A stretch of DNA of 36,323 nucleotides from Alphaproteobacteria bacterium (GTDB lineage Bacteria; Pseudomonadota; Alphaproteobacteria; Rs-D84). A program made the translations under genes and the position numbers. Each line of letters begins with the position of its first letter. Positions within the stretch are counted from its first letter, which is position 1. The notes beneath the pieces are model-generated. The model had not been told where the DNA came from. It ran no database searches and saw only the letters and a list, made by a program, of their open reading frames with translations. Below are positions 12,957 through 36,323 of the stretch, piece by piece. The stretch lies in NCBI GenBank assembly GCA_017522445.1, contig JAFWZK010000012.1:1-36323 (forward strand), given 5' to 3'.

Positions 12957-12963
12957 GAATTTT

Positions 12964-13052: not shown

Positions 13053-13063
13053 ATGCGTGGGGT

Positions 13064-13092: not shown

Positions 13093-13107
13093 GTGATAAA
13101 ATTAAGA

Positions 13108-13127
13108 AAATCCCCAGTTGGGGATTT
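13108..13127 (-). terminator. Hairpin after the accDA gene
   Basis: An 8-bp stem AAATCCCC/GGGGATTT with a 4-nt loop lies 2 bp past the stop. The downstream minus-strand sequence TCTTAATTTT is moderately T-rich. Confidence 0.65.
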
Positions 13128-13129
13128 GT

Positions 13130-14875
13130 TTAGTGTTCTTCACCAATGTGTTCGGGTTGGTATATCTCGACATCACGGGTCATGGCCAAGAATTTGTCCA
13201 TGCGACGCCCTGGCAGTTCTGATACAGGTATTTCCATCAGTTCACGAATATGCCTGGTAACAGATGTCGCCAACAGTTCCATGGTTGTTTGCCAATCCGT
13301 ATGTGCACCACCCGCAGGTTCGTGTATAACCTCGTCTACGATGTTCAAATTCGCCATGTCGCGGGCCGTTAGTTTCATTGCTGTGCTGGCAACTGCCTTG
13401 AATTTATTATCACGCCACAAAATACTGGCACACGATTCTGGGGCAATCACAGAATATATCGCGTTTTCTAACATCAAAACACGGTCGCCCGTACCAATCG
13501 CAATCGCACCACCAGAACCACCCTGCCCCACGTTAACGGCGATATATGGGGTTTTGATAGACAAACCGGTCGCAATAGACGATGCAACCGCCTGGGATTG
13601 ACCACGCTCTTCACCTTCGCGACCGGCAAAGGCCCCCGCCGTGTCAAACAGCGATATCAATGGCAATTCAAACTTTTCTGCCAGACGCATCATGCGTTGG
13701 GCTTTGCGATAACCGTCGGGATTGGGCATGCCAAAACGATGCTTTTGCCGGGTTTCAATGCTGCGCCCCTGTTCCTGGCCAATAATTACAGATGGGATGC
13801 CACGCCAAAATCCAATGCCAGATGCCATGGCCGCATCTTCGGCATATAAACGGTCGCCCGCCAGGTATGTCCAATCGTCAACAATGCCGTTGATATAATC
13901 CAGAAAATGTGGACGATTTTCGTTGCGGGCCAATAACACCTTGTCATAGGCATCGCTTTCGCCCATGCCGCGAATCTTTTTCGATGCGTCATGCGGCGGT
14001 GTTGATACGTTAATTTGCTTTGGCGTGCGTTCCTGTTTGGTCAAGACCGCCAATATTCGCGCAATCGTATCGTGCAAATCGCCACGGGCAACAACCATGT
14101 CAACCATTCCATGTTCGTACAGATAATCCGCCGTTTGGAAATTCGATGGCAACTTCTCGCGGATGTTTTGTTCAATAACGCGGCGACCCGCAAAACCTAT
14201 GCGAGCCCCCTTTTCTGCAATGTTTATGTCGCCCAACATTGCAAATGATGCCGTCACACCGCCAAATGTAGGGTCGGTCAATAAAACAATATAGGGTATA
14301 CCATTTGCGTGCAATTTATTTACAGCAGCCGTCGTGCGTGCCATTTGCATTAGTGATAAAATATTTTCCTGCATACGGGCACCACCACTGGACGTAACCA
14401 TAATAAACGGACGACGGGTCGCAATCGCGTGTTCCATAGCCGCAACAATGGCATCGCCCGCCGCACGCCCCATAGACCCCATCATAAATAAACCATTTAA
14501 TACACAAACAGTTGTTGGAATGCCGCCAATCGTTCCGTCCGCAGTCGATACGGCGTCGTAACAGCCCGTTTCAGAACGTGCATCTGCCAATCTGTCCAAA
14601 TATGGAACACGATCTGAAAAACTTAACGGATCGTCAGATACACTGGGTGGTGTCAGACGCTCCCACAGATTATCATCAAACAGTAAATCAAATCGCTGCT
14701 TTGGAGTCATGATAAATGCACGACCACAACTGGGACAAATATATTTATTTCCCTTGTAATCTTTATAGTAAACCAATTTGCCGCATGATTCACACTTAAT
14801 CCACATCAGACGACGAACGCGTTCGTAACGTTCCCGATTGCGATTTTTTATGCCAGACCTTTTACCAAATAGCAT
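13130..14875 (-). CDS. accDA: Fused acetyl-CoA carboxylase carboxyltransferase beta-alpha (AccD-AccA)
   Basis: One 581-residue chain carries both halves of the acetyl-CoA carboxylase carboxyltransferase, which moves the carboxyl group from biotin to acetyl-CoA to make malonyl-CoA for fatty acid synthesis. Residues 24-50 form the AccD zinc ribbon (C28, C31, C47, C50), followed by the beta crotonase-fold domain (VTSSGGARMQENILSLMQM, DPTFGGVTASFAMLGDI, AGRRVIEQ). From about residue 300 the AccA domain follows (AYDKVLLARNENRPHFLDYI, FGMPNPDGYRKAQRMM, FDTAGAFAGREGEERGQ, GQGGSGGAIAIGTGDRVLML, APESCASILW). The short N-terminal helical segment usual in free AccA is missing at the junction. In most proteobacteria accA and accD are separate, so the fusion is notable. 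It starts 2 bp after the ihfB-like gene, in one operon. Confidence 0.95.
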   Translation of the reverse strand: MLFGKRSGIKNRNRERYERVRRLMWIKCESCGKLVYYKDYKGNKYICPSCGRAFIMTPKQRFDLLFDDNLWERLTPPSVSDDPLSFSDRVPYLDRLADARSETGCYDAVSTADGTIGGIPTTVCVLNGLFMMGSMGRAAGDAIVAAMEHAIATRRPFIMVTSSGGARMQENILSLMQMARTTAAVNKLHANGIPYIVLLTDPTFGGVTASFAMLGDINIAEKGARIGFAGRRVIEQNIREKLPSNFQTADYLYEHGMVDMVVARGDLHDTIARILAVLTKQERTPKQINVSTPPHDASKKIRGMGESDAYDKVLLARNENRPHFLDYINGIVDDWTYLAGDRLYAEDAAMASGIGFWRGIPSVIIGQEQGRSIETRQKHRFGMPNPDGYRKAQRMMRLAEKFELPLISLFDTAGAFAGREGEERGQSQAVASSIATGLSIKTPYIAVNVGQGGSGGAIAIGTGDRVLMLENAIYSVIAPESCASILWRDNKFKAVASTAMKLTARDMANLNIVDEVIHEPAGGAHTDWQTTMELLATSVTRHIRELMEIPVSELPGRRMDKFLAMTRDVEIYQPEHIGEEH

Positions 14876-14877
14876 AA

Positions 14878-15159
14878 TTATTTCTCGTTCATTTTTTTGG
14901 TTAATTCACGACTGGGTTTGAATAAAATAGTTGTGCTGGCCGGCAATGGCATAGGTTTGCCAGTGCAAGGATTATAGCCAACCTTGGTCGCACGGGCACG
15001 TGGCTGAAATGTGCCAAAGCCACGAATCTCGATTCTGTCACCGTTGGCAACAGACTCAATCATATGTTCCGAGACCGTGTCCAATATCGCAGCAGCATCC
15101 GTTGACCGCATGTGTTTAAATTTTACCTGAATAGAACGTACTATGTCTGAGCGTTTCAT
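14878..15159 (-). CDS. HU/IHF family DNA-bending protein, IHF-beta-like
   Basis: A 93-residue histone-like protein. KRSDIVRSIQ opens the dimerisation helices. GDRIEIRGFGTFQPRARA matches the IHF-beta body (ERIEIRGFGSF), and YNPCTGKPMPLPASTTILFKPSREL matches the arm plus C-terminal helix, including the NP..G intercalating tip (GYNPCTGK). That motif and the RIEIRGFGTF strand favour IhfB over HU, but subunit type cannot be settled by eye. The ATG at 15159 has AGGATAAG just upstream, better than an ATG eight codons earlier. It precedes accDA by 2 bp, so the two are co-transcribed. A TATAAT at 15196-15201 (minus strand) could be its -10 box, though no good -35 is visible. Confidence 0.9.
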   Translation of the reverse strand: MKRSDIVRSIQVKFKHMRSTDAAAILDTVSEHMIESVANGDRIEIRGFGTFQPRARATKVGYNPCTGKPMPLPASTTILFKPSRELTKKMNEK

Positions 15160-15309
15160 TTTTCTTATCCTTTGTTCTTGCACCTTATTATGATTATTAT
15201 AACGATATTTATCAAGAATAAAGTTTCTTGTTTAATACGAATACGTTCCTGTGCCGATTTTTTAGCAAAAATGATAATCTGAATAGCGTAAGCAAGCAGG
15301 AGTCTTTGT

Positions 15310-16011
15310 ATGGAACAACTAAATAATGAACACGATTTTATACCGCGGATGCCACTGATTGGTGATATTGCACCCCAGTTTTATGCAAACACAACAAATG
15401 GTAAAATTAACTTTCCAAATGACCTGGCAGGACATTGGATTGTGTTCTTTTCGCACCCATCAGACTTTACCCCAGTTTGCACAACCGAGTTTGTTGCGTT
15501 TCAAAATAAAATTGCGGATTTTGCAGAAATAAATACTGTGCTGGTCGGGCTGTCCGTTGGTGCAAATGCGTCGCACCTGGCGTGGATTGATGTAATTGCA
15601 AAAATGAAAAATGGTGTACAGATAACCTTTCCTTTGATAGATGATTTAAGTATGAATGTTGCAAAAAAATACGGAATGATTCACCCAGGTGCATCCGATA
15701 CCAATGCCGTTCGCGCTGTGTTTATAATAGACCCCAGTGCAATAATTCGTACAATTTTATACTATCCGCCTGTGTTGGGGCGAAATATCGATGAAATATA
15801 TCGTGCAGTTGTGGCACTGCAAACAGCAAGTGTATTTGGTGTTGCCACACCCGCTGATTGGACACCAGGGGAAAATGTGCTGACCCCTGCCCCCACCCAG
15901 GTCAAGCAATTATGGAAACACGATAAAAAAACACCATGGTTTTTGAACTATAAAAAGTTGAGCAAAGATGATATTTATCGCAAAATCAGAAAACAAAAAT
16001 CTGGGAAATAA
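15310..16011 (+). CDS. 1-Cys peroxiredoxin (Prx6-type)
   Basis: A thiol peroxidase that reduces H2O2 and organic peroxides. The 233-residue length and C-terminal extension fit the Prx6/AhpC-TSA subgroup. The peroxidatic cysteine is Cys57 in HPSDFTPVCTTEF, with the Thr (T54) and the downstream Arg (AVRAVFIIDP) of the active site. I see no other cysteine in the chain, which makes it a true 1-Cys enzyme needing an external reductant. The start at 15310 has AGGAG 8 nt upstream. It is divergent from the ihfB operon and convergent with the alkyltransferase-like gene. Confidence 0.93.
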   Translation: MEQLNNEHDFIPRMPLIGDIAPQFYANTTNGKINFPNDLAGHWIVFFSHPSDFTPVCTTEFVAFQNKIADFAEINTVLVGLSVGANASHLAWIDVIAKMKNGVQITFPLIDDLSMNVAKKYGMIHPGASDTNAVRAVFIIDPSAIIRTILYYPPVLGRNIDEIYRAVVALQTASVFGVATPADWTPGENVLTPAPTQVKQLWKHDKKTPWFLNYKKLSKDDIYRKIRKQKSGK

Positions 16012-16046
16012 CAACCCAGGACAAAATAATGTGGTCAAATTCTGGT

Positions 16047-16391
16047 TCAAAATACCAGCGGAAAATCACGTATGTCAACAGGTGCAGAATCACGTTCGGG
16101 GTCCCATTGAAAATCGGACATGATAACATGCCTTTGACGGTCAAACCGCACACCTTCGGATTTCAAAGCACGGTATTGTTCGGCCGCCATGCCAGAACAC
16201 AAGGAACCGTCTTTGAACACAACACGATGCCACGGCAGGTGCCAGGATGCCCGATTATTAGACGCATAACCGACAAAGCGCGCCATGCGTGGGCGACCAA
16301 TCATTGCCGCAATTTGACCAAATGTCGCCACACGACCATGCGGAATACGGGCGACAGTATCATATACTTTTTCGTTGAATGTTTTCTCCAT
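16047..16391 (-). CDS. Alkyltransferase-like protein (ATL; PWHR variant of MGMT)
   Basis: A 114-residue protein with only the DNA-binding domain of O6-alkylguanine-DNA alkyltransferases: VYDTVARIPHGRVATFGQIAAMIGRPRMARFVGYA includes the wing/arginine-finger region. The active-site motif, normally PCHRV, reads PWHRVV with Trp54 in place of the acceptor Cys. This is the hallmark of ATL proteins (E. coli YbaZ type), which bind O6-alkylguanine lesions and hand them to nucleotide excision repair instead of repairing them. A tail of about 35 residues (RFDRQRHVIMSDFQWDPERD) has no clear family match. A Shine-Dalgarno is poor (AAGGT almost touches the ATG). The gene converges on the peroxiredoxin gene. 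Confidence 0.88.
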   Translation of the reverse strand: MEKTFNEKVYDTVARIPHGRVATFGQIAAMIGRPRMARFVGYASNNRASWHLPWHRVVFKDGSLCSGMAAEQYRALKSEGVRFDRQRHVIMSDFQWDPERDSAPVDIRDFPLVF

Positions 16392-16435
16392 ACCTTAATG
16401 CTAGCATATACAATGAAAAAGTCAAATATTTGGAC

Positions 16436-16464
16436 TTGCAATATAATCCCAATGTGGTTATAAT
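16436..16464 (+). promoter_or_regulatory. Promoter of tRNA-Ser(CGA)
   Basis: TTGCAA (16436-16441), 17-bp spacer and TATAAT (16459-16464), placed 9 bp before the tRNA 5' end. Confidence 0.85.
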
Positions 16465-16473
16465 GGCGGGCAC

Positions 16474-16564
16474 GGAGACGTGGCAGAGCGGTTGAATGCG
16501 CGCGACTCGAAATCGTGTATACGGCAACCCCGTATCAAGGGTTCAAATCCCTTCGTCTCCGCCA
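16474..16564 (+). tRNA. tRNA-Ser(CGA)
   Basis: A 91-nt class II tRNA: acceptor GGAGACG/CGTCTCC, anticodon loop CTCGAAA with CGA at 16508-16510, long variable arm (TATACGGCAACCCCGTAT), T arm GGGTTCAAATCCC, encoded CCA. It reads UCG serine codons. A diverged copy of its 3' portion lies about 400 bp downstream. Confidence 0.97.
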
Positions 16565-16586
16565 CCCGTCTTTGCTAGCGCAAAGC
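16531..16586 (+). repeat. Left copy of imperfect repeat (tRNA-Ser(CGA) 3' end plus hairpin)
   Basis: From CGTATCAAGG in the variable arm through the CCA and a CTTTGCTAGCGCAAAG hairpin. The right copy at 16934-16985 has the same order with substitutions and a 4-nt gap. Confidence 0.75.
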
Positions 16587-16681
16587 CGCGGTTAAGCGGA
16601 TTTAAGTGTAGCAAAACGGAGTGTCGCGGCTTTTGGGTCGCAGTTTTTTTATAAAAAACAAGACAAAAAGACGGACTAAAC

Positions 16682-16921
16682 ATGTATTACGTGTACATTT
16701 TACAATCAATAAATAATCCAGATTCCTTTTATATTGGTTTTACAACTGATTTAAAACAGAGATTAGCGGAACACAATTCTGGAAAATCGATACATACAAA
16801 TAAATACAGACCTTGGCAAATAAAAAATTATTTTGCATTTGGTGATGAACAAAAAGCCAAAGATTTTGAATCTTACTTAAAAACTCATTCTGGACGTAAA
16901 TTTTGTAAAAATCATTTTTGA
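16682..16921 (+). CDS. Small GIY-YIG endonuclease-domain protein
   Basis: A 79-residue single-domain GIY-YIG protein of the UPF0213/YhbQ size class. The core is YYVYILQS (GIY-like strand) followed 10 residues later by FYIGFTTDLKQRLAEHNSG (YIG strand, catalytic Arg in the QRLAEHN helix), then a WQIKNYF strand and an AKDFESYLKTHSGRKF helix (metal-binding Glu). Members are structure- or site-specific DNA nucleases; some are linked to mobile elements. No Shine-Dalgarno is evident. The gene is AT-rich compared with its neighbours, lies directly downstream of tRNA-Ser(CGA) and is enclosed by the imperfect duplication of the tRNA 3' end. That suggests a small element using the tRNA as its target (inference). 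Confidence 0.88.
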   Translation: MYYVYILQSINNPDSFYIGFTTDLKQRLAEHNSGKSIHTNKYRPWQIKNYFAFGDEQKAKDFESYLKTHSGRKFCKNHF

Positions 16922-16933
16922 TTTTTATTATTG

Positions 16934-16985
16934 CGTATCAAGGACAGGGATACGTCTCCGCTACCTGTCTTTGCTAACGCAAAGC
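16934..16985 (+). repeat. Right copy of imperfect repeat (diverged tRNA-Ser 3' end)
   Basis: CGTATCAAGG, a shortened T-arm-like part, CGTCTCCGCTACC (the tRNA acceptor end with CCA changed to CTA) and CTTTGCTAACGCAAAG. It closes the GIY-YIG element on its right side. Confidence 0.75.
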
Positions 16986-17002
16986 GAGATGGTCAGAAAT
17001 TA

Positions 17003-17030
17003 AACCCGCCAATCGGCGGGTTGTTTTTAT
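17003..17030 (+). terminator. Rho-independent terminator after the GIY-YIG element
   Basis: AACCCGCC/GGCGGGTT, 8-bp stem with AATC loop, followed by GTTTTTATTTT on the plus strand. Confidence 0.8.
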
Positions 17031-17101
17031 TTTGGTCAAGCAAATCGGCCACTAGGCTTTTTACATTGGTATAGGAATATTTTGATATCAACACAAGATT
17101 T

Positions 17102-18295
17102 TTAAACTTCGAAATTATAGTTTTTGACAGAGCGGACAATCGCATCAACCAATTTGTTCTGGTGCTTGTCCGTTTTTAATAACTTTTCTTCGGCTGCATT
17201 GGACAGATGCCCCAATTCCAATAATGCCCCAGGAACCGTAGAACGTAATACCGCAAATGGTGCATGACGGACATCTGGGCCGGGTTGTTGTTCTATGTCT
17301 GCACGTTTAAATGACTTTGCACAGCCGGTGGCGTATTCCTGACTCATTTCTGCGACCGCGTGCTGTTGTAATGACGATAATGCTATGCGAATATTTTCTT
17401 CAAACTCGGTAAAACCCGACACGCCAATTTTATCAGCAGCATTTTCGGCCTCGGCCAGTTTTTTTGCCTCTTCGTCTGATGCCTTTTCAGATAATGTGTA
17501 AATCGAAAAACCCTTCATCTTGCGACTGGGATTCGCGTTTGCATGCAGGGATATAAACAGGTCTGCATGTCGCTTCTCGGCAATAGAGGCGCGTTCAGCC
17601 AATTTCAAATATGTGTCACCACTGCGGGTCAGGTATGTTTTGTAACCGCTGGCGTCCAACTTATTTTTTAACTTTCTGGCGACAGATAAAACAATATCCT
17701 TTTCGCGGGTTCCACCTTTGCCTATGCAACCGGGGTCTTTGCCGCCGTGACCGGCATCTATGACAATTACATATTTATGCGCCGCAGTCACAGCCGTTGT
17801 TGCCGTGGCAGATGATGTAGTGTATTCGGATTTTGACGATGATGATTTGATATTCTGGGATGCCTGGGGTGCCGTGCCTGCAACAAAATCTAAAACCAGA
17901 CGATAATCATTGTCACCATTTGGTTCCAATATCATAACAGAAGACTTGGATATTTCGGCAATTGGTTTATGCAGGTTCGCAATAATATGCAATACATCAC
18001 CATTTTGCGACTGGCTGATGTTTTTTACCAGTCCATCACTGGCCAATCGGGCAGATATATTCATGTTTGCAGATGTGTTCGACAGTTTTACCACCAGCTG
18101 GTTCGCAGGGTATGATAATGTATATGATGGACGATTTGCAGTTTCAATTACCAATCGTGTTTTATTGCCCGGTTGAACCCCCGTGCGAATTGAACGCAAT
18201 GTATTGCGTGCCGCAAACGCAACGCGTGGCAATGTCATCGCCGCGAATACCGAAAAACCTGTAATTTGTAAAATGTTTCGTCTGCTGAATTTCAT
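17102..18295 (-). CDS. N-acetylmuramoyl-L-alanine amidase (AmiC-like, Tat-exported)
   Basis: A 397-residue periplasmic amidase that cleaves the peptide stem from MurNAc during cell separation. The start MKFSRRNILQITG begins a twin-arginine signal (SRRNIL at residues 4-9), hydrophobic core, cleavage after VAFA. Residues 30-150 resemble an AMIN septal-targeting domain. A Ser/Thr/Ala linker follows. From about residue 180 comes the Amidase_3 zinc domain: VIDAGHGGKDPG (zinc His), GTREKDI (Glu), DLFISLHANA (His) and the catalytic Glu in ALLELGHLSNAAEE. No Shine-Dalgarno is present. A near-consensus promoter ends 7 nt before the ATG, so the mRNA should be leaderless. A longer upstream frame overlaps the neighbour's terminator and is rejected. 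Confidence 0.93.
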   Translation of the reverse strand: MKFSRRNILQITGFSVFAAMTLPRVAFAARNTLRSIRTGVQPGNKTRLVIETANRPSYTLSYPANQLVVKLSNTSANMNISARLASDGLVKNISQSQNGDVLHIIANLHKPIAEISKSSVMILEPNGDNDYRLVLDFVAGTAPQASQNIKSSSSKSEYTTSSATATTAVTAAHKYVIVIDAGHGGKDPGCIGKGGTREKDIVLSVARKLKNKLDASGYKTYLTRSGDTYLKLAERASIAEKRHADLFISLHANANPSRKMKGFSIYTLSEKASDEEAKKLAEAENAADKIGVSGFTEFEENIRIALSSLQQHAVAEMSQEYATGCAKSFKRADIEQQPGPDVRHAPFAVLRSTVPGALLELGHLSNAAEEKLLKTDKHQNKLVDAIVRSVKNYNFEV

Positions 18296-18302
18296 GGATT
18301 TT

Positions 18303-18331
18303 ATTATATCAAAAATCGCCCCCTTGTTCAA
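18303..18331 (-). promoter_or_regulatory. Promoter of the amidase gene, predicted leaderless
   Basis: TTGAAC (18326-18331), exactly 17 bp, then perfect TATAAT (18303-18308) on the minus strand. Only 7 bases separate the -10 box from the ATG at 18295, so transcription should begin at or within a base or two of the start codon. Confidence 0.8.
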
Positions 18332-18344
18332 GTGTATTTCAGGA

Positions 18345-18368
18345 ATAAAAAACCCGCCAATCGGCGGG
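18345..18368 (-). terminator. Rho-independent terminator of the secreted protein gene
   Basis: On the minus strand CCCGCC/GGCGGG with a 4-nt loop is followed by TTTTTTAT, directly after the 415-residue protein's stop. Confidence 0.85.
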
Positions 18369-18378
18369 GGATTTATAT

Positions 18379-19626
18379 TTATTTGCTGACACAATTCGCA
18401 AACGACTGGGAAACAATGGATTGTTCCTGGGGTGTCATTTGGGCAACCGGTATAACATAACAACGTGCACTGTCACGAATAATATACACCTTGGTCCCGC
18501 GGGTATAGGCAACCTGCATATCGTCCATTTGTGCACCAGTTAAAAATGCATTCTGGGTCGTTGAAGGATTCGATAATGCCGCCATTACCACCTGGTATGC
18601 GTCAGAATATGTGTACAATTCAGATAAAGATGTGACATCCATCCAAACAGACCAGTCTTCGTGCTTATTCTCGCGTTTTTCTTCGGTCGTTGGAAATGCC
18701 ATATTGACCGCCAGAGCTGCAACAGTTTGCAGTGCCGTCGGCTGAGACTGGCCATCAGATGTATGGGCAACGGTATTTAACTGCATATTATCACCACACG
18801 CCAGGTTCATACGGTTTGTATAACCCGCCAATACTGCATCAACCGCCGCCTGCCATTCTTCGCCCTTTTTATTTAAATCCAGACTGACAATCTTTTCCGC
18901 CCAACCCCAAATGTTTGCACCAACATTACCAGCATTGGCAAAGCGTGTTACCATTTCAGCACTGCCCCCAGGGACGCCGGCACCACAATAATCTGTTAAT
19001 TGCGTGTTTAGCATGCTGGCCGTTTCGTTGCCATACGCCAACGCAACCGAGTGACATGCCATGGCGGCCTCTAACTCTTGGCGACGTTGCAAACACAGGT
19101 CAGAGTGCGATTTTGACAGCTGGTTCGCCATATTAGACATAGATATGAATGACATTAATTCCTGTTGCACATAAGAAGGACATAAACGTGCCGCCGTATT
19201 CATGCCGCCTTTGCCATTTATTGTGTTTACACCGTATTGAGGCAACAAGATTTCTGTATCCTTTTGCAGGCACAGCAATGTGTAGTTGTATAATTCACTT
19301 TCCGTTGCATACTGGCACCTGGATTCGCGTTGACCGGGCACAACCGTTACATCGCCACAATATTCGGTCAGGCAATTAAAAATCTTGGTCCGACATGCCG
19401 TATCAACATCTGGCTGGGTTACCATAAAGTATGTATTACGCTGGTTCGTTTTATACGCCTGGGCCAGTCCAGCGTTGCCACGCAAATTCGTTGTCCCGCC
19501 CGTTACCGTGCCAGAAATACCACGATTTTGTCCCGCAGAACCAACCGTGCCAGCAGACACTGCAAATGATGCGTCGCCCAACAGGCATGCACAAACCATA
19601 CAAAAAAACGTCAGAAAATATCTCAT
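18379..19626 (-). CDS. Exported cysteine-containing protein of unknown function
   Basis: I do not recognise this 415-residue protein. It starts with a Sec signal peptide (MRYFLTFFCMVCACLLGDASFA, cleavage near ASFA-VSA). A Gly/Thr/Asn-rich stretch (about 23-60) follows, then a conserved-looking core with about a dozen scattered cysteines (CRTKIFNCLTEYCGDV, ESRCQYATESELYNY, LLCLQKDTEI, RLCPSYVQQELMSF, DLCLQRRQELEAAMACHS), probably disulphide-bonded in the periplasm or outside. The C-terminal part has YTYSDAYQVVMAAL and ends QSFANCVSK. GAGAGGG 6 nt before the ATG supports the start. No catalytic motif is seen. It is divergent from prfB and has its own promoter and terminator. Confidence 0.85.
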   Translation of the reverse strand: MRYFLTFFCMVCACLLGDASFAVSAGTVGSAGQNRGISGTVTGGTTNLRGNAGLAQAYKTNQRNTYFMVTQPDVDTACRTKIFNCLTEYCGDVTVVPGQRESRCQYATESELYNYTLLCLQKDTEILLPQYGVNTINGKGGMNTAARLCPSYVQQELMSFISMSNMANQLSKSHSDLCLQRRQELEAAMACHSVALAYGNETASMLNTQLTDYCGAGVPGGSAEMVTRFANAGNVGANIWGWAEKIVSLDLNKKGEEWQAAVDAVLAGYTNRMNLACGDNMQLNTVAHTSDGQSQPTALQTVAALAVNMAFPTTEEKRENKHEDWSVWMDVTSLSELYTYSDAYQVVMAALSNPSTTQNAFLTGAQMDDMQVAYTRGTKVYIIRDSARCYVIPVAQMTPQEQSIVSQSFANCVSK

Positions 19627-19647
19627 TTAATCCCTCTCGTTAAGCTG

Positions 19648-19676
19648 ATTCTATCACATTAATTAAAAAAAGGCAA
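19648..19676 (-). promoter_or_regulatory. Promoter of the 415-residue secreted protein
   Basis: TTGCCT (19671-19676), 17 bp, TAGAAT (19648-19653) on the minus strand. Start expected near 19641, giving a 15-nt leader with GAGAGGG. Confidence 0.65.
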
Positions 19677-19684
19677 ACATTCAT

Positions 19685-19712
19685 TTGATTTATAAAAATA
19701 ATCTGATAAGAT
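19685..19712 (+). promoter_or_regulatory. Promoter of prfB, predicted leaderless or nearly so
   Basis: TTGATT (19685-19690), 16 bp, TAAGAT (19707-19712). The ATG at 19722 is 9 bases after the -10 box and has no Shine-Dalgarno, so any leader is at most about 3 nt. Confidence 0.55.
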
Positions 19713-19721
19713 TTAATCGCT

Positions 19722-20793
19722 ATGGTTATAACAAATGATTTTTTGACACAAATTTCAGACGACATCGCCGCCGTCAGGGGGTTCCTTTGACCCTGATACA
19801 CTGATAAAACAGATTTCTGAACTGGATGAACAGGTAAACAATCCTAATCTGTGGGATAATCCTGATAATGCACGTGCAATTCTGCAGAAAAAATCAAACC
19901 TGGAAAAAACATTGAAAGAACTGACTGATTTAGAGTCGGAACTGGCCACGTTGCGTGAATTGTATGAATTGGCCCCCGATGATGCTGATGTTTTAAACGG
20001 GCTGAAAACACTGGCGGACAAGGCACATCGGGCAAAGTTTATAACACTGTTTCGTGAACCCGCCGATAATAATGGGGCATTTCTGTTTATCCAGGCCGGT
20101 GCCGGCGGAACCGAGGCACAAGACTGGGCACAGATGATGGCACGTATGTATGCCAGATGGGCCGAACGTCATGGATTTATAACCGAAGTTATCGAAGAAC
20201 ACGAAGGCGATACAGCAGGAATTAAAAATATTACATACAGAATATCTGGCGAACGTGCCTATGGATGGCTGAAAAATGAAATCGGTGTACACAGATTGGT
20301 ACGGATTTCACCATTTAATGCAAACGGAAAACGCCAGACCAGTTTCGCATCTGTTGACGTGTGGCCCGATATAGATGATACAATCGAAATCGAAATAAAC
20401 GACAAAGATCTGCGAATTGACACATATCGCGCATCAGGTGCAGGCGGTCAGCATGTTAACAAAACCGACAGTGCTGTTCGCATTACTCATATTCCTACAA
20501 ATACAGTTGTTACATGCCAAAATGAACGCAGCCAAATTCAAAATAAAGAAATGGCAATGAAAATGCTGCGAAGCAAATTGTATGAACTGGAAATGCAAAA
20601 ACGTGCCGCCGAAGAAGATGCCGCCAAGGCCGCACAAAAGAAAATTGAATGGGGCAGTCAAATCAGAAACTATGTTCTGTACCCATATCAGCTGATTAAA
20701 GACGTTCGTACAAATGTTGAAAAAACAGATTCTGACGCTGTGCTGGACGGTGATTTAGATGATTTTATGCTGGCTGCGTTACAGGGATTTTAA
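19722..20793 (+). CDS. prfB: Peptide chain release factor 2, with programmed +1 frameshift
   Basis: RF2 recognises UAA/UGA and triggers peptide release. The gene is two frames: 22 codons from ATG 19722 to an in-frame TGA at 19788-19790, then, after skipping one T at 19788, 334 codons from 19789 to the stop at 20793, giving 356 residues (E. coli 365). The joined product reads AAVRGFL-DPDTLIKQ as in other RF2s. Domain landmarks are VRISPFNANGKRQTSFASV (SPF anticodon-like motif) and ASGAGGQHVNKTDSAVRITH (GGQ catalytic loop). The start has no Shine-Dalgarno and sits close to a -10 box. The small kinase gene follows 6 bp downstream, probably in the same transcript. Confidence 0.96.
19776..19790 (+). 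promoter_or_regulatory. RF2 programmed frameshift site
   Basis: AGGGGG (internal Shine-Dalgarno), TTC, slippery CTT and stop TGA followed by C: the canonical RF2 autoregulatory signal. Low RF2 delays termination at TGA and lets ribosomes slip +1. Confidence 0.95.
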
Positions 20794-28037: not shown

Positions 28038-28583
28038 ATGATTCTGATTATAAATACAGCAGGAAATAGTTTAGAATTTGTTCTGGGGAATAATCATAAA
28101 TCTGTCACAGTTGAAAAACAGTCGATTGCCCTGCCGGTCGAGTGCGAAAAATTTATGACCGAAAATAATGCAAAATGGTCGGACTTACATGCAATCGGTG
28201 TTGTCGTTGGGCCAGGCAGCTTTACGGGAATTCGCCTGGGAATCGCATATGCCAAAGGGTTGGCAATGGGGTTGAAAACCCCAGTCGTTGGGGTCAGTGT
28301 ATTTGATTTGTATCTGGCGGCAACACCTGATGCATTTGTTGCAATCGATTCTGGTCGTGGTGATTTCTTTGTGGCGGCGAACGGATTGGCGCCAAGGACA
28401 ATGAAAATCGAGGAACTGGAATCAAAACAAATGGAATGGCCACGCACAGTTGGACACAAACCCTTTGATTTAAAGTTGGCTGTCGATGTTGTGAAACAAA
28501 AAATTGCATCCGGTGATACAAAACCCGTTGTGCCAATGTACCTGCGCCCCAGCTATGCAGAAGAAAATAAAAATGTTAAATGA
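28038..28583 (+). CDS. tsaB: tRNA t6A biosynthesis protein TsaB
   Basis: TsaB (YeaZ) is the scaffold partner of TsaD in forming t6A37 on ANN-decoding tRNAs. The 181-residue protein shows the ASKHA start ILIINTAGNSLEFVLG and the diagnostic VVVGPGSFTGIRLGIAYAKGLA, then VVGVSVFDLY and FVAIDSGRGDFF, with the C-terminal half shortened compared with E. coli TsaB (231 residues). AAAGGC precedes the ATG. It overlaps rimI by 11 bp, the classic tsaB-rimI arrangement, in an operon starting at lon. Confidence 0.93.
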   Translation: MILIINTAGNSLEFVLGNNHKSVTVEKQSIALPVECEKFMTENNAKWSDLHAIGVVVGPGSFTGIRLGIAYAKGLAMGLKTPVVGVSVFDLYLAATPDAFVAIDSGRGDFFVAANGLAPRTMKIEELESKQMEWPRTVGHKPFDLKLAVDVVKQKIASGDTKPVVPMYLRPSYAEENKNVK

Positions 28584-28959
28584 ACTGGCGAATCTTCACC
28601 AAAAATGCTTTCCGCACAAGCCATGGAGTGCAGACGATTTTTCAGACCTGAAAAAGTCGGGGTGTGAAATTATCGCCAGCCAGCATGGATTTATCGTTTA
28701 TCGACAGACACTGGACGAAGCGGAAATTATCACCATTGGTGTGCACCCAGATGCACGCAGAACTGGAATTGCGGCAGCAATGCTGGGGATTATGGAAGCG
28801 GACTTGAAAAAACATGGTGTAAAACATGTATTTCTTGAGGTGGCGGCGGATAACACCCCTGCCCGTACACTGTACGAAAATAATGGTTTTGTTCAAATCG
28901 GTGTGCGACCAAAATATTATGATGGCCAGGATGCCATTATGATGAGGAAAGATATATGA
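28573..28959 (+). CDS. rimI: GNAT N-acetyltransferase, RimI-type
   Basis: RimI acetylates the N-terminal alanine of ribosomal protein S18. The 128-residue protein has the GNAT core: a short N-terminal part with HQKCFPHKPWSADDF, strand IITIGVHPDARRTGIAAAMLG (acetyl-CoA binding loop R-x-x-G-I/x-A), then VFLEVAADNTPARTLYENNGFVQIGVRPKYY as in RimI ('L.VR..N..A..LY...GF...g.R..YY'). The ATG at 28573 lies within the end of tsaB; an earlier in-frame ATG at 28504 would give an unrelated N-terminus. It overlaps the next gene at ATGA. Confidence 0.9.
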   Translation: MLNELANLHQKCFPHKPWSADDFSDLKKSGCEIIASQHGFIVYRQTLDEAEIITIGVHPDARRTGIAAAMLGIMEADLKKHGVKHVFLEVAADNTPARTLYENNGFVQIGVRPKYYDGQDAIMMRKDI

Positions 28960-30020
28960 GTACAATAGACTATATGCCCAGTACAGCCATTATGGTCAAG
29001 GCAGTTGAAAAATCTTTTGAATACCCATACGGTGTGATGGATGTCAATTCAATTACACCCGGTCGACCTGCGATTGTTATCCTGGGGGGTGATTTGACGT
29101 CCCTGCCCCGACATGCAACCTATTACACCAAAGAAATTAAATCTGTGTTGTCCGATGCAGAACTGCATGACGTTGATGTATATGCGTTTTACTATAAGTT
29201 CGGTTCACGCAGTTCATATGTCGAACGAATAAATATGTTTAAAAATGCCGGACATAAAATTAATTCCCTGAAGGTTGACCAGGATGTATTTGAAAAACGC
29301 AGTGAACATATGAAACAGACCGAACCACGCGCGTTATATATCAAGAAAATCTTTGATATGGTAATTCGGCCGATTATTTCGACAGACGAAAATCACATAG
29401 AACAAAATGCCGCCATGCTGCGTTTCTATACACATTCACATGGCGGGTACATAGCCCGAGAATTAGCAAGAATAATGAAGCATGAACTGAAAATACAAAA
29501 TTTATCGGACAATAAAATCAAAGATATTCAAAACCAAATTATCGCCATTCAGCATGGTCCAATCGCACCACTGGAAAACCCGGACTTTACAACCGTAACA
29601 TTTGGATCTGCGTCCGATACAGCAATGGATATGCATAACCAATTCACAGAATATGTCACAAATAATTCAGGTGATATTTTCCCGTGTTATCTGGGTGGCA
29701 AGAATTCTCACCTGTTTATTGTCGGTCAATCCAAGAAAAACTTTGATGGGGAACATGACCCACGGGGACTGGCGGTGGCGGATGAAAATGTTCTGACCCC
29801 AGATGGAAAAATTCTGTTTACCGCAGAACGAAATGTAATCGTAAACACTATGCGGGCCGCAGCCAACAAACATCCCACACCACATATAAATAAATTGGTT
29901 TCTGGTAACGGAATAGACTTTGATTCTTTGAAACAGTCCGGAACATTTTTATATAATCGGATGCTGGGCGATATCAGAAATCAGATGCAACAAAATCCAA
30001 TACGCGGTCGTCAAAAATAA
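28956..30020 (+). CDS. Hypothetical protein with a possible alpha/beta-hydrolase nucleophile elbow
   Basis: A 354-residue cytoplasmic protein of unrecognised family. The N-terminal part has a buried strand and turn (PAIVILGGDLTSLPRHATYY, residues 38-57) and VDVYAFYYKFGS. At residues 158-165 YTHSHGGY, followed by helix IARELARIM, resembles a lipase/esterase elbow (G-x-S-x-G with the first Gly as Thr), making S161 a candidate nucleophile. A histidine-rich C-terminal half (IAIQHGPIAPLEN, LGGKNSHLFIVGQ) could supply the rest of a triad. The ATG overlaps the rimI stop (ATGA), so it belongs to the lon-tsaB-rimI operon. Its 3' end overlaps the convergent helicase gene by 47 bp. Confidence 0.7.
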   Translation: MSTIDYMPSTAIMVKAVEKSFEYPYGVMDVNSITPGRPAIVILGGDLTSLPRHATYYTKEIKSVLSDAELHDVDVYAFYYKFGSRSSYVERINMFKNAGHKINSLKVDQDVFEKRSEHMKQTEPRALYIKKIFDMVIRPIISTDENHIEQNAAMLRFYTHSHGGYIARELARIMKHELKIQNLSDNKIKDIQNQIIAIQHGPIAPLENPDFTTVTFGSASDTAMDMHNQFTEYVTNNSGDIFPCYLGGKNSHLFIVGQSKKNFDGEHDPRGLAVADENVLTPDGKILFTAERNVIVNTMRAAANKHPTPHINKLVSGNGIDFDSLKQSGTFLYNRMLGDIRNQMQQNPIRGRQK

Positions 30021-31248
30021 CATCACGTGGACGCAATGGGGATGCAATATGCATGTCCGAACTGCGACGTGTACGCGATAGTGCCACATAAACCTGGCCA
30101 TGGGCAAAGGCACCACGCGATATATCAACAACAACCGCGTCCAATGTTTTGCCCTGGGCACGATGTATCGTCATGGCATAGCCCAAGGATAATGGAAACT
30201 GTTTATATGAACCCACCTCGTTTTCAACCAAGCGGTCATTCTCGTCGCGAGTGTATTCTATCTTGTCCCACTTGTCCGGTTTTACGGTTACCACATCACG
30301 CGAATCAGATAATAATTGAACAACGATTTCACGCGGTGTCAGACTGCGAACAATACCCATAGAACCATTATGCCATTTGTCACCATTTTTTACAAATACA
30401 ACCAATGCACCAACCTTTAATGTTAATGCCAATGGTGCAGGAACGTCACGTTCAGAAAATATACCACTTAACACACCATTATATACAAACTCGGGCGCTG
30501 CAATTTGTGCCAGGCGTGTTGTGTTTATGCGTTCGGCAACCGCACGAAACGGTGTGATAATAACCGCATTTTCACGACGCAAAGCGTCAGATATTTTACA
30601 TTCGTTAAAATACCCCAGTGCACCAGTGTCATTGTTTCGCAAGCGTCCCAAATTTTCCAACAATGGAATATCACTTTGACGATATACCATGCTGAAATTA
30701 TACCGAATAAAATTCGACCGTTTGTAAACGTGACTGTCAAAGAAATACGCGTTGGGATGCCCATATTCCGATTCGTAATATCCGGTTGCATCACGGGTAA
30801 TGACCGGTGGCAGTTGAAATAAATCACCAATTGCAACAACCTGGATACCCCCAAAGGGTTCATTATTGCGGCGTGCCCATCGTGCCAATATATCAATCGC
30901 ATCCAATAAATCAGGCGCGACCATCGATATTTCATCAATCACCAACACATCTGTTGCGGTTAAAATGTTGCGTGGTTTTGCCTTAAGTTTTAAAAAATCG
31001 GGCATGATAAAGTCACGTGGCTGAATCTGGAACAGCGAATGTATTGTTTGTCCGCCAATGTTCAATGCCGATACCGCGGTCGGACATGCACACAAAATCC
31101 GCTTGGACGATGCAGATTTTAAGTAATTCACAAATGTCGATTTACCCGTTCCCGCAGGCCCCAATATCAACAAATTGGAATTCGTGCGTTCCAGGGCATT
31201 AAATGCCGCCATCTGGGTTTCGTTTAAAATCGGTGCAATTTCTGACAT
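29974..31248 (-). CDS. PIF1/RecD-like SF1B DNA helicase
   Basis: A 424-residue helicase of the PIF1/Pif1-like family. Walker A GPAGTGKS lies at residues 30-37, followed by CPTAVSALNIGGQTIHSLF (motif Ia), VLVIDEISMVAPDLLDAID (motif II), VVAIGDLFQLPPV (motif III), NFSMVYRQSD (motif IV region), and a C-terminal SH3-like insertion ending in YAMTIHRAQGKTLDAVVVD (motif V) and GQVYVALSRTRRSSDMHI (motif VI). These enzymes unwind DNA 5'-3', for example at G-quadruplexes or stalled forks. Two starts are possible, ATG 31248 or 31260; MSEIAPILNETQ at 31248 is preferred on family alignment, without clear Shine-Dalgarno. Confidence 0.92.
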   Translation of the reverse strand: MSEIAPILNETQMAAFNALERTNSNLLILGPAGTGKSTFVNYLKSASSKRILCACPTAVSALNIGGQTIHSLFQIQPRDFIMPDFLKLKAKPRNILTATDVLVIDEISMVAPDLLDAIDILARWARRNNEPFGGIQVVAIGDLFQLPPVITRDATGYYESEYGHPNAYFFDSHVYKRSNFIRYNFSMVYRQSDIPLLENLGRLRNNDTGALGYFNECKISDALRRENAVIITPFRAVAERINTTRLAQIAAPEFVYNGVLSGIFSERDVPAPLALTLKVGALVVFVKNGDKWHNGSMGIVRSLTPREIVVQLLSDSRDVVTVKPDKWDKIEYTRDENDRLVENEVGSYKQFPLSLGYAMTIHRAQGKTLDAVVVDISRGAFAHGQVYVALSRTRRSSDMHIASPLRPRDVIFDDRVLDFVASDF

Positions 31249-31295
31249 GTATGTTATCATGACATAAAATAATGCGAAATAAAATAATTTTTATC

Positions 31296-31515: not shown

Positions 31516-34500
31516 ATGGTTGAGTTTTGCTGCAGAAAATTGGCGAAAATCTTGGTTTTTTTTGCACTTGCATTTGTTTGCCTGATTGTTAACACCGATC
31601 AATCATGGGCTGTGAATCTTTTTCGATGTGTGAACTGTGCTAAAACAGAGCGTTGGCTCGATGATGTAGAATGTAAAGAGAAGATAGAAGAGATCTGTTC
31701 GATTAGCGATCTTTCAGAGTCTGAGTGCGAGATAGATAATGATACCGATAAACTGTATTGCTACGGTTATACCGAACCAGAAACACCTCCATCTTCGTGT
31801 ACATGCAATTGCCCAGCCGAAAGTTGTGTTGATATTTCATATATACCGGGATATCAGGTTTGTACTAGATATATCTGTGATACATCCGATTGTGCTTGTT
31901 ATGAGATGACCAACATCGGTTGTTCATCGGGCTATACAGCAGATCGTATAGCAACGTGTCTTATAAAAGATGTGGAGGCACAAGACAAATATAGTAGTTG
32001 TTCCGGATGCACTTGTACAACACTGTGTACTTCTGTATCTGCGGCAGGTAAAGCAACCCAGGAGTGTACACGTTCGTGCGATATTGAACACGGAACATGT
32101 TCGTACAGTGGTTCAACACAAACATGTGTCAGTGGTAATTATACATCGTCTGGCTGTTCGTCTGCAGGCGATACGTGTTCGGGGTGCAGTGGACAGTGGG
32201 GCGAATGTACCGGCGGTACAAAAAGTATTACATGTAATGAGGGGTATTACAAATCTGGGAATGCATGCCTTTGCACAACCTTATGTACATCGGCTGCCAA
32301 TCGTGAAACATCCAGCGGCACCGAGGGTTGTTCTTATGATTGCACCAGTTCTATTGCCAACGCCGCATCCGCGACGTATTCTGGAACACGCTCGTACACC
32401 AACACATGTAATGGGAATTATACAGCTGGTGGTTGTAAATCGGCGGGCGCGTCATGTTCGGGATGTTCTTCGTGGACACGCACCAGCACCGGCTCCTGTG
32501 GCAGTGGTTCATGCACATTGAACAGTTGCAAGTCTGGTTATTACAAAGATGGGAATGCATGCTATTGCACAACCTCATGCACATCGGTGGCGAACAGCAC
32601 CAGCACCACCAGCGGCACCGAGGATTGTTCTTATGATTGCACCAGTTCTATTGCCAACGCCGCATCCGCGACGTATTCTGGAACACGCTCGTACACCAAC
32701 ACATGTAATGGGAATTACACAGCTGGTGGCTGCTCATCTGCGGGGGCAACATGTACAGGTTGTTCTTCGTGGTCACGCACCAGCACCGGCACCTGTGGCA
32801 GCGGTTCATGTACATTGAACAGTTGCAATTCTGGTTATTACAAAGATGGGAATGCATGCGTTTGCACAACCCCATGTACATCGGTGGCGAATAGCACCAG
32901 CACCACCAGCGGCACCGAGGATTGTTCTTATGATTACACCAGTTATATTGCCAATGCCGCATCCGCGACGTATTATGGAACACGCTCGTACACCAATACG
33001 TGTAATGGGAAGTATACAGGTGGTGGCTGTTCATCTGCGGGTGCGTCATGTACAGGTTGTTCTTCGTGGACACGCACGTCAACCGGTACCTGCGAGGGCG
33101 GAACAATCAGCATAACATGCAATGCGGGATATTATTTGAAAGATGGAGAGTGCGTTCAGTGCGACCCGGGAACATATTCATCTGCGGGGGCAACGTCTTG
33201 TAAGACCTGTACCGGATTGCCATCAAATGCAGAATGGACGGGTTCTGCAACATCAAACGCATGCCCATGGAGATGCAAGGCCAATTATTATAAATCGGGG
33301 TCTTCGTGTAAGCCATGTTCGGGGGTGTCGTTCACAGATACGGGTACAGATACAGAAACCATAACCGGCGGTTCACGCACACGCTCTAAAACACGTACAT
33401 GTTATCGCACGACCAGTTCAGCGGGTTCAACATCTTCGTCTGCATGTAGCGGTTCTGGAAATTGTGGTACCTGGTCGTATGGCGCATGGGACGCAGTATG
33501 TTCAACGGGATATACGCAAAATGCAAATGATGATGGGTGTAACTGTAATACAAATTGTACCGCTGTATCAAACACATCGTCAACCCAGACCTGTACACGT
33601 TCGTGCGACATTGACCATGGAACATGTTCGTACAGTGGTTCAACACAAACATGTAATGGTAAATATACGGCTGGCGGTTGTTCCTCTGCGGGGGCAACGT
33701 GTTCTGGATGCTCGTCATGGGGTGCATGTACTGGTGGTACAAAAAGTATTACATGTCATGCAGGGTATTATTTGAAAGATGGAGAGTGCGTTCAGTGCGA
33801 CAAGGGAACATATTCATCTGCGGGGGCAACGTCTTGTAAGACCTGTACCGGATTGCCATCAAATGCAGAATGGACGGGTTCTGCAACATCAAACGCATGC
33901 CCATGGAGATGCAAAGCCGATTATTATAAATCAGGGTCTTTGTGTGCGGCATGCTCGGACGTGTCGTTCACAGATACGGGTACAGAAACACAAACCATAA
34001 CCGGCGGTTCACGCAAACGCTCTAAAACACGTACGTGTTATCGCACGACCAGTTCAGCGGGTTCGACATCTTCATCGGCATGTAGCGGTTCTGGAAATTG
34101 TGGTACCTGGTCGTATGGTGCATGGGACGCAACTTGTTCAACGGGATATACGCAAAATGCAAATGATGATGGGTGTAACTGTAATACAAACTGTACCGCT
34201 GTATCAAACACATCGTCAACCCAGGACTGTACACGTTCGTGCGACATTGACCATGGAACATGTTCGTACAGTGGTTCAACACAAACATGTAATGGTAACT
34301 ATACGGCTGGCGGTTGTTCCTCTGCGGGGGCAACATGTTCTGGCTGCTCGTCATGGGGTGCATGTACCGGCGGGACAATCAGCATTACATGCAATGCGGG
34401 GTATTATTTGAAAGATGGAAAATGCGCTCAGTGCGAAGCCGGATATTACTGCCCCGGGGACAACAGTCGAGGTTCATGTTCTGGACGTACCAAATATTCG

Positions 34501-36323
34501 GGGGCCGGGGCATCGAAATGTTCAGACGTCAGCGGTGGGCATTACACAACCGGATGCAATTCCAGTGGTAATAATTGTAAAGATCAAAGTCAGTGTACAG
34601 ATGCAACATATTGTTCTGAGGGAATTCAATACGACTGTCCCGATGGTTATACGGCAGATACATCAAATGGTAAAACGCTGGCAAAACAATGTAAAATCAG
34701 TGTATCTGGCGGTAAATATTTGACTACGAAAAATAAGACAACCACAGCATCGTGTTTGGCGGGTTATTACAAGGCGGCACATACCGTGGCGTATGGCGAC
34801 ACGTCCAGCTGTTCTGTGTGTACGGGACGTACCAAATATTCGACGGGCGGGGCATCGGAATGTTCAACCGTCAGTAGCGGCTATTATACAACCAAGTGCA
34901 ACAGCAGTAATAATGCATGTACCGGTCAGTCTGAATGTGGTTCAAATGCATATTATTGTTCGGGTGGTATCAGATACAGTGTTACGTCGGGATATTATTC
35001 AACTGGTGGTTCTGCAACAACACGTACAGGACAAAAACAATGTACGGCTGGTACGTACTGCAGTGGTGGTGTTTCAGCGTCGTGTCCGGGGGGTACATAC
35101 GGGTCAACGGCGGGGCTGACGACCAATGCATGCAGTGGACAATGTAAGGAAGGATACTATTGCCCGGCGGGGTCAACATCTGCCACACAAAATGCGTGTC
35201 CGTCGGGTTCATCCAGTGCGGCGGGGGCTGATGCGGTTGCTGATTGTTCGTGTGTTGCCGGATATGGCGGTGATGCGTCCAGTGGGTCTGCGTGCACGAT
35301 ATGTGCGGCGGGATACTATAAATCCAGTGCGGGTAATACATCATGTTCAAACTGTGGTAAGGGATATTACTGTACCGGTGGTACGGCACGTGCGGCGTGT
35401 CCGGCGGGTACATACGGTTCAACGGACAATTTAAAAACCGCTGCATGTACGGGGCCGTGTGCGGGCGGTCGATATGGCAGCAGTACTGCACAAACTGCGT
35501 CTACATGTAATGGTTCATGTACAGAGGGATACTATTGCCCAGAGGGGTCGACATCTTCAACACAAAATGCGTGTTCAGCAGGGTATTACTGTCCGGCGGG
35601 GTCGGCATCACAAAGTCCATGTACGGGACGTACCCAGTATTCGGCGGCCAAGGCATCGGCATGTTCAACCGTCAGCAGTGGTTATTACACAACCAACTGC
35701 AACAGCAGTGGTAATTATTGTACCGGTCAAAGCCAGTGTACAGGTGCAACATATTGTTCTGGGGGAATTCAATACAACTGTCCCAGTGGTTATACGGCAG
35801 ATACATTAAATGGTAAAACGCTGGCAACACAATGTAAAATCAGTGTATCCGGCGGTAAATATTTGACTACGAAAAATAAGACAACCACAGCATCGTGTTT
35901 GGCGGGTTATTACAAGGCGGCACATACCGTGGCGTATGGTTCCACGTCCAGCTGTTCTGTGTGTGAAACAGATAAATACAGTGATGAAGGGGCCGCGGCA
36001 TGTACCGCGTGTCCAACTGACTATAAAAACACTGGGGACACAGCAAAGAAACACGCCAGCAGTGCCAGCTGTATTATAACCGTGACTGCGGGTAAGTATA
36101 TTGGCACCGCGGGTGATAATACAACCAACTGGGATACCTGTGCGGCGGGTACATATAAACCACAGCATACCGTGGCGTATGGTTCTACGTCCAGCTGTCC
36201 TGTGTGTGGAACAGATAAATACAGTGATGTAGGGGCTGGGACGTGTACCGCGTGTCCAACTGACTATAAAAACACTGGGGACACAGCAAAGAAACACGCC
36301 AGCAGTGCCAGCTGTATTATAAC
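31516..36323 (+). CDS. Giant exported cysteine-rich repeat protein (GCC2/GCC3-, TNFR-like), 3' end beyond the window
   Basis: A single frame stays open from ATG 31516 to the window end, at least 1,602 codons. An in-frame TAA at 31501 limits the start. The N-terminus is a Sec signal peptide (KLAKILVFFALAFVCLIV, cleavage near QSWA). The rest is almost pure C, G, S, T, N and Y, with Cys about every ninth residue, in CxxC pairs and GYY/GTY turns such as GYYCPAGSTSATQNAC, GYYKSSAGNTSCSNCGKGYYC and CPAGTYGSTDNLKTAAC. These resemble eukaryote-like extracellular GCC2/GCC3 (ephrin-receptor-like) and TNFR-like repeats. It contains tandem blocks: three of about 98 residues (32257-33135), two of exactly 212 (33136-34407), and an 81-residue repeat at the end. 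Probably a disulphide-rich surface or secreted adhesin; function is inferred. Codon pattern keeps the frame across all repeats. Confidence 0.88.
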   Translation, partial: MVEFCCRKLAKILVFFALAFVCLIVNTDQSWAVNLFRCVNCAKTERWLDDVECKEKIEEICSISDLSESECEIDNDTDKLYCYGYTEPETPPSSCTCNCPAESCVDISYIPGYQVCTRYICDTSDCACYEMTNIGCSSGYTADRIATCLIKDVEAQDKYSSCSGCTCTTLCTSVSAAGKATQECTRSCDIEHGTCSYSGSTQTCVSGNYTSSGCSSAGDTCSGCSGQWGECTGGTKSITCNEGYYKSGNACLCTTLCTSAANRETSSGTEGCSYDCTSSIANAASATYSGTRSYTNTCNGNYTAGGCKSAGASCSGCSSWTRTSTGSCGSGSCTLNSCKSGYYKDGNACYCTTSCTSVANSTSTTSGTEDCSYDCTSSIANAASATYSGTRSYTNTCNGNYTAGGCSSAGATCTGCSSWSRTSTGTCGSGSCTLNSCNSGYYKDGNACVCTTPCTSVANSTSTTSGTEDCSYDYTSYIANAASATYYGTRSYTNTCNGKYTGGGCSSAGASCTGCSSWTRTSTGTCEGGTISITCNAGYYLKDGECVQCDPGTYSSAGATSCKTCTGLPSNAEWTGSATSNACPWRCKANYYKSGSSCKPCSGVSFTDTGTDTETITGGSRTRSKTRTCYRTTSSAGSTSSSACSGSGNCGTWSYGAWDAVCSTGYTQNANDDGCNCNTNCTAVSNTSSTQTCTRSCDIDHGTCSYSGSTQTCNGKYTAGGCSSAGATCSGCSSWGACTGGTKSITCHAGYYLKDGECVQCDKGTYSSAGATSCKTCTGLPSNAEWTGSATSNACPWRCKADYYKSGSLCAACSDVSFTDTGTETQTITGGSRKRSKTRTCYRTTSSAGSTSSSACSGSGNCGTWSYGAWDATCSTGYTQNANDDGCNCNTNCTAVSNTSSTQDCTRSCDIDHGTCSYSGSTQTCNGNYTAGGCSSAGATCSGCSSWGACTGGTISITCNAGYYLKDGKCAQCEAGYYCPGDNSRGSCSGRTKYSGAGASKCSDVSGGHYTTGCNSSGNNCKDQSQCTDATYCSEGIQYDCPDGYTADTSNGKTLAKQCKISVSGGKYLTTKNKTTTASCLAGYYKAAHTVAYGDTSSCSVCTGRTKYSTGGASECSTVSSGYYTTKCNSSNNACTGQSECGSNAYYCSGGIRYSVTSGYYSTGGSATTRTGQKQCTAGTYCSGGVSASCPGGTYGSTAGLTTNACSGQCKEGYYCPAGSTSATQNACPSGSSSAAGADAVADCSCVAGYGGDASSGSACTICAAGYYKSSAGNTSCSNCGKGYYCTGGTARAACPAGTYGSTDNLKTAACTGPCAGGRYGSSTAQTASTCNGSCTEGYYCPEGSTSSTQNACSAGYYCPAGSASQSPCTGRTQYSAAKASACSTVSSGYYTTNCNSSGNYCTGQSQCTGATYCSGGIQYNCPSGYTADTLNGKTLATQCKISVSGGKYLTTKNKTTTASCLAGYYKAAHTVAYGSTSSCSVCETDKYSDEGAAACTACPTDYKNTGDTAKKHASSASCIITVTAGKYIGTAGDNTTNWDTCAAGTYKPQHTVAYGSTSSCPVCGTDKYSDVGAGTCTACPTDYKNTGDTAKKHASSASCII
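32257..33135 (+). repeat. Three tandem repeats of about 294, 297 and 288 bp in the giant gene
   Basis: Units begin with GGGAATGCATGC at 32257, 32551 and 32848. Each encodes NACxCTT.CTS... followed by CSYDCTSSIANAASATY, TCNGNYTAGGC and CSSWTRTSTG. They are close to identical at DNA level, always in frame. Confidence 0.9.
33136..34407 (+). repeat. Two tandem 636-bp repeats in the giant gene
   Basis: Units 33136-33771 and 33772-34407 are exactly 636 bp (212 residues), each with 24 cysteines by my count and about a dozen amino acid differences. A third, diverging start (LKDGKCAQC) follows at 34408. Confidence 0.92.
35923..36323 (+). repeat. 243-bp tandem repeat at the window end
   Basis: CATACCGTGGCGTATGG recurs at 35923 and 36166, offset 243 bp (81 residues), followed in both by near-identical CTACPTDYKNTGDTAKKHAS. 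The second unit is cut by the window end. A longer block at about 34631-34822 also recurs at about 35774-35965. Confidence 0.85.

Follow-up and report, generated by a model that had tools for sequence, protein, structure and literature searches.

What is a protein of more than 1,600 residues, with a cysteine at about every ninth position, doing in a bacterium with a 0.99 Mb genome, and is the frame that encodes it a gene at all? The window, by which we mean the whole stretch of 36,323 nucleotides analysed here, is one contig (C9) of a 62-contig assembly estimated to be 94.6% complete. From an ATG at 31516, a single open frame extends on the + strand to 36321, comprising 1,602 codons, and it stays open at its 3' end because the contig stops there without a prior stop codon. 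An earlier note had reported more than 1,600 codons without a stop and a cysteine roughly every ninth residue, and both figures hold: 175 of the 1,602 residues are cysteines, or 1 per 9.15. The protein also contains 22 CxxC and 17 GYY motifs. Spacing between successive cysteines is broad (0 to 27 residues) and module-like, and the disulfide-type pattern proposed for the protein is supported. The N-terminus, MVEFCCRKLAKILVFFALAFVCLIVNTDQSWA, resembles a signal peptide. While this call comes from a simple heuristic rather than a trained predictor, most complete orthologues start with the same arrangement, consistent with the export that had been predicted. The features within the frame are:

31516..31611, + strand: putative signal peptide, approximately residues 1–32, with a basic start, a hydrophobic core and an S-W-A end
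32312..33202, + strand: three tandem 99-residue Cys modules (297-nt repeats), from DNA repeat analysis
33074..34345, + strand: a pair of 212-residue blocks repeating every 636 nt, and an incomplete third that extends to 34443, from DNA repeat analysis
34472..35914, + strand: region of a 1143-nt repeat pair of GYY modules (34472–34771 and 35615–35914), from DNA repeat analysis
35896..36323, + strand: 243-nt repeat array cut off by the end of the contig; the final 80 nt are identical to positions 5–84 of contig C19

The repeats, with periods of 297, 636, 1143 and 243 nt, are all in frame, and comparing their copies shows how the protein has been changing. In five of six pairs of copies every cysteine column is kept while other residues drift, and in five of six pairs dN/dS lies between 0.26 and 0.52, the sixth giving 1.18 from few sites. 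This last value belongs to the pair 34474–34770 and 35617–35913, with 27 non-synonymous and 7 synonymous changes, where there has perhaps been diversification or exchange. Related frames are found elsewhere in the same genome on contigs C2, C8, C17 (two), C19, C23, C44 and C54, several of them cut by contig ends, which puts the count for the 0.99-Mb genome at seven or more related genes or gene ends. Identical stretches as long as 119 bp recur between these paralogues, and several contigs break off within them, so the interior of the array may have been assembled wrongly. The earlier note had also linked the giant protein to an exported Cys protein at 18379, but that protein gave no profile match, and no relation between the two was found.

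The surroundings of the frame are conserved. A lon-like gene at 25934 precedes the following upstream neighbours, identified by synteny:

28038..28959, + strand: tsaB-like (28038) and rimI-like (28504) genes
28956..30020, + strand: conserved neighbour with no Pfam match
29974..31260, − strand: PIF1-like helicase, supported also by profile scan

The names lon-, tsaB- and rimI-like, like flavoprotein and hydrolase below, are our own readings of the sequences. About a dozen relatives have all or part of the order lon-tsaB-rimI-helicase-giant gene-flavoprotein-hydrolase. In G020, G007 and G044 a giant Cys-rich gene is preceded by the upstream genes in unchanged order, and about eight further genomes have this upstream order wholly or in part; in G020 the neighbour corresponding to 28956–30020 is duplicated. 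Downstream, a flavoprotein and/or an alpha/beta-hydrolase-like gene follows the complete orthologues at most loci where the flank was read.

This synteny bears on the missing 3' end. Contig C19 of the same assembly starts in the same 243-nt array; from there an 880-aa frame runs on and finishes with the orthologues' C-terminal domain of ~330 aa (E 2.8e-167). C19 in turn overlaps contig C5 by 141 identical bases, and the flavoprotein and hydrolase then follow on C5. The giant gene therefore has the same neighbours on both sides, upstream in the window and downstream via C19 and C5. We infer the join of C9 to C19 from the repeat array (80 bp exact) and from synteny, and very probably the missing end of the gene lies on C19 and C5. 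The gene probably spans C9 and C19 and encodes ~2,450 aa, with the number of repeats uncertain. Behind it on C19 and C5 are two secreted Cys-rich frames of 433 and about 477 aa, the former a copy of the C-terminal domain. They overlap head to tail (2640–4067 on C19 and 3346–4752 on C5) with the junctions ATGGTGA and TAATG, which suggests translational coupling of the Cys-rich frames.

We collected 56 orthologous frames of 1,060–6,143 aa (median 2,272), some cut by contig ends. They have in common the Cys-rich C-terminal domain of ~330 aa, which we call A1 (type B end), and the complete ones finish in a Cys-rich ...CxxxCxxGYxxW. The terminal residue is Trp in 18 of 18 complete genes read, a count taken from a table with one spurious row, and the tandem copy on C19 ends QWDGK. 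BamA-type C-terminal signals usually show an alternating residue pattern; the GYxxW leading to the terminal Trp looked unlike it by eye, and this explanation of the Trp was rejected. A shorter C-terminal domain of ~65 aa (type A, A2) was also considered as an anchor for the window gene and rejected as such, because it ends other paralogues, the window gene's probable end being type B. A2 occurs in 109 of the order's 142 genomes. Within the lineage the genes vary greatly in size. Frames of 6,344 aa (G123, contig C2) and 6,143 aa (G166, contig C23) each take up ~2% of a 1-Mb genome. Contig C3 of G021 (6203–19998) has two such giant genes one after the other, of 2,871 aa and at least 1,708 aa within that stretch, the second measuring 4,469 aa in the C-terminal domain search. 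Three secreted proteins of 840–1,055 aa (L065, L066 and L080), widespread in relatives, have a different body and share with the giant family a C-terminal WDxxxxWGxC...CxxGY module.

Together, the retained Cys columns, the dN/dS values under 1 in all but one of the six pairs and the syntenic orthologues exclude chance and make the coding real. The window frame is the 5' part of a real, conserved, lineage-specific gene for a giant exported protein. A1 was matched in 92 of 142 genomes of the order, and the matches that were listed fell in the window genome's own family. In a sample of 398 genomes from the phylum, one congener was the sole match besides the own genome (tallied as 2), and searching viral contigs with both C-terminal alignments gave no relatives. 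A1 is present in most genomes of one tiny-genome alphaproteobacterial family, probably Ca. Enterousia, order Rs-D84; the size, class and relatives of the window genome fit this placement (PMC12306168, PMC8035907). A search of open-access papers returned none describing these giant proteins.

Have the modules been seen in other proteins? The earlier note had likened them to the GCC2/GCC3 and TNFR-like modules of eukaryotic surface proteins. Three stretches bear on this:

35284..35370, + strand: Ephrin_rec_like (PF07699, formerly GCC2_GCC3) match in the genome scan, 25.8 bits against a cut-off of 23.1
33118..33210, + strand: best TNFR_ELAPOR1_6th (PF23091) stretch, residues 535–565, 19.6 bits, under the cut-off of 33.2
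33109..33321, + strand: modelled module, residues 532–602, pLDDT about 71–89, with likeness to TNFR and Eph domains

The GCC2/GCC3 likeness is genuine but borderline. One stretch passes the PF07699 cut-off, and so do paralogues on C54 (25.3) and C17 (23.8), with C44 and C2 also in the genome scan, but the whole-protein scan of the window protein reported no such match. Among 299 sampled genomes of the phylum, PF07699 exceeded its cut-off in two, the own genome and one congener, so modules of this kind are rare in the phylum. For TNFR-like modules the profile score falls short, and what remains is the likeness of the predicted fold. The structure model covered residues 532–696, with fair confidence for 532–602; a second model, of residues 959–1120, was discarded for a mean pLDDT of 51. 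The 532–602 module matches chains of TNFR, Eph, ELAPOR1, calcium-sensing receptor, thyroglobulin and mastigonemes consistently but weakly, with a Foldseek E of 0.0078 at best and a Z of about 5.5 at an rmsd of 6.6 over 79 residues. The model supports, weakly, a likeness to TNFR/Eph domains and does not imply descent or function. EGF-type domains, also suggested for checking, gave no Pfam match over cut-off in the window protein, and cEGF in the C54 paralogue was below its cut-off (13.7 vs. 26.6). A PDB sequence search with the window protein returned no match at E up to 10, and an NCBIfam scan no relevant one.

How far do these comparisons extend? With Eph receptors, ELAPOR1 and TNFR proteins, the giant protein shares short Cys modules with a CxxGYY/GTY pattern. 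Unlike them, it is bacterial, very long and Ser/Thr/Gly-rich, has its own C-terminal domain and no membrane anchor, and most of its modules score under the profile cut-offs. The variable surface proteins (VSPs) of Giardia likewise have many cysteines, CxxC motifs and repeated modules and form a multigene family. However, complete orthologues of the giant protein lack the C-terminal transmembrane anchor and tail, and the gene occupies a fixed, conserved locus. Membership among protist variable surface proteins is not supported. Some relatives of the family contain stretches of Listeria-Bacteroides repeats (InlB B, Flg_new, PF09479); these were not found in the window part, and the relatives scanned were below the cut-off (25.9 vs. 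27). Chlamydomonas MST1, a long extracellular protein that forms the filaments of mastigonemes, appears among the weak fold matches of the window module, but it is a eukaryotic hydroxyproline-rich glycoprotein (PMC11015965), and the PDB search gave no sequence match. That the giant protein forms filaments as MST1 does would be only a guess by analogy. These data also raise the question of how the eukaryote-like modules originated, by transfer or by convergence.

A disulfide-bonded surface protein would also have to be exported and oxidized. A C-terminal anchor or secretion signal had been suggested as a further check, and neither was found in complete orthologues by Pfam or by reading the sequences: they have no C-terminal hydrophobic helix, profile scans detected no known secretion domain in them or in the window protein, and two of them (L038, L041) gave no autotransporter beta-barrel Pfam match. 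A secretin gene adjoining a TcpQ-like gene is present once per genome in 27 of 30 genomes and, with a T2SSE ATPase and T2SSF, makes up a type IVb pilus set. Such pili can export soluble colonization proteins, for example TcpF (PMC9565799). TcpF and CofJ serve gut colonization in species that have a TcpQ/secretin type IVb pilus, a set also present here. Each is a small single protein whose gene belongs to the pilus operon, and an N-terminal segment that binds the minor pilin is characteristic of such secreted proteins (PMC9565799). The window gene lies outside the pilus locus, by lon-tsaB-rimI-helicase. Nor do the pilus genes track the giant protein, since they also occur in families of the order without the C-terminal domain. 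A paralogue does adjoin TcpQ-secretin: on C54 (1–8996) a giant Cys-rich gene of 1,789 aa lies directly downstream of the TcpQ-like and secretin genes, and in G010 a type-A Cys-rich gene occupies the same slot. Only these two genomes among those classified have a Cys-rich gene there, the slot being variable, and the adjacency is suggestive only of a link to export.

For oxidation, the Dsb-type enzymes that had been proposed were recovered in part. A DsbA-like thioredoxin family was matched in 28 of 30 relatives, and the own-genome member (C44) has a CGYC motif and, by our reading, a membrane anchor, but neither DsbB nor VKOR gave a match in any of 30 genomes, in searches run with positive controls. 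The lineage is anaerobic and fermentative, with neither flagella nor common uptake transporters (PMC12306168). With DsbB and VKOR undetected, it is hard to see how DsbA would be re-oxidized in a fermentative anaerobe, and the question arises of how such an organism could oxidize some 175 or more cysteines in one protein.

We favour, with middling confidence, the reading that the giant protein is an extracellular disulfide-bonded rod for attachment. The signal peptide and Cys spacing, the Cys columns kept in the repeats, the syntenic orthologues with their shared C-terminal domain, the module model, the DsbA-like protein, the pilus set and the predicted reliance of the lineage on partner cells (PMC12306168) speak for it; the missing DsbB and VKOR matches, the pilus genes that do not track the protein and the weakness of the fold matches speak against it. 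The window gene would then supply the N-terminus and centre of a secreted multidomain rod of ~2,450 aa, counting the C19 end. The chain would be exported by Sec, would fold in the periplasm module by module with the aid of the membrane-bound DsbA-like oxidoreductase, and would cross the outer membrane, perhaps via the conserved type IVb pilus secretin. Outside, it would form an extended fibre or coat attaching to partner cells or to a host surface, with the variable number of modules setting rod length and surface chemistry. The conserved Trp-ended C-terminal domain would have a fixed job, either docking to secretion or anchoring machinery or binding a ligand. We infer in this way the disulfides, the outer-membrane route, the surface location, the attachment role and the ligand. 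A bolder version, which we regard as doubtful, makes it a mastigoneme-like filament of TNFR/GCC2-type modules, exported by the secretin, oxidized by the DsbA-like protein with an acceptor other than DsbB or VKOR, and connecting these partner-dependent gut bacteria to their partner cells.

Other readings start from the same observations. The protein could be a protective coat or S-layer-like lattice with no specific adhesion, in which shuffling of modules among paralogues evades phages, predators or host defences. The seven or more related genes or gene ends, their exact shared stretches and the widely varying orthologue lengths all fit this, but the main gene sits at one conserved locus, which is not an expression site, and keeps its C-terminal domain, and the shared stretches may stem from assembly in repeats or from recent duplication; we think it rather unlikely. 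Somewhat less credible is a structural protein of the periplasm or cell wall that never leaves the cell. It would account for a signal peptide with no outer-membrane passage domain, either autotransporter or known sorting domain, although a length reaching 6,143 aa and a fast-changing central region would fit exposure better. The 22 CxxC motifs might instead stay reduced and bind metals or store sulfur or redox equivalents, with no disulfides, as the failure to detect DsbB and VKOR in an anaerobic, fermentative lineage (PMC12306168) could suggest. Such a role is improbable given the broad, module-like Cys spacing, the resemblance of the modelled module to disulfide-bonded TNFR and Eph domains, and the retention of a DsbA-like protein with CGYC. 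Very unlikely, finally, is an assembly artefact joining pieces of several repeat genes: contigs do end inside paralogues and the 243-bp array, but many other assemblies, among them the single-contig genome G087 (2,279 aa), have an unbroken frame of 2,000 to more than 4,000 aa at the corresponding position, which already largely refutes it.

The attachment rod that we prefer can be set beside what has been predicted for the lineage. For order Rs-D84 the prediction is an obligately symbiotic or parasitic life, with numerous uncharacterized membrane proteins; Rs-D84 and Ca. Enterousia bacteria occur widely, are uncultured and are predicted to depend on a partner (PMC12306168). In such a lineage, the host interaction that the earlier note had suggested is plausible for this protein. 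The conserved giant Cys-rich locus is a concrete, testable candidate for how Rs-D84 bacteria contact their partner.
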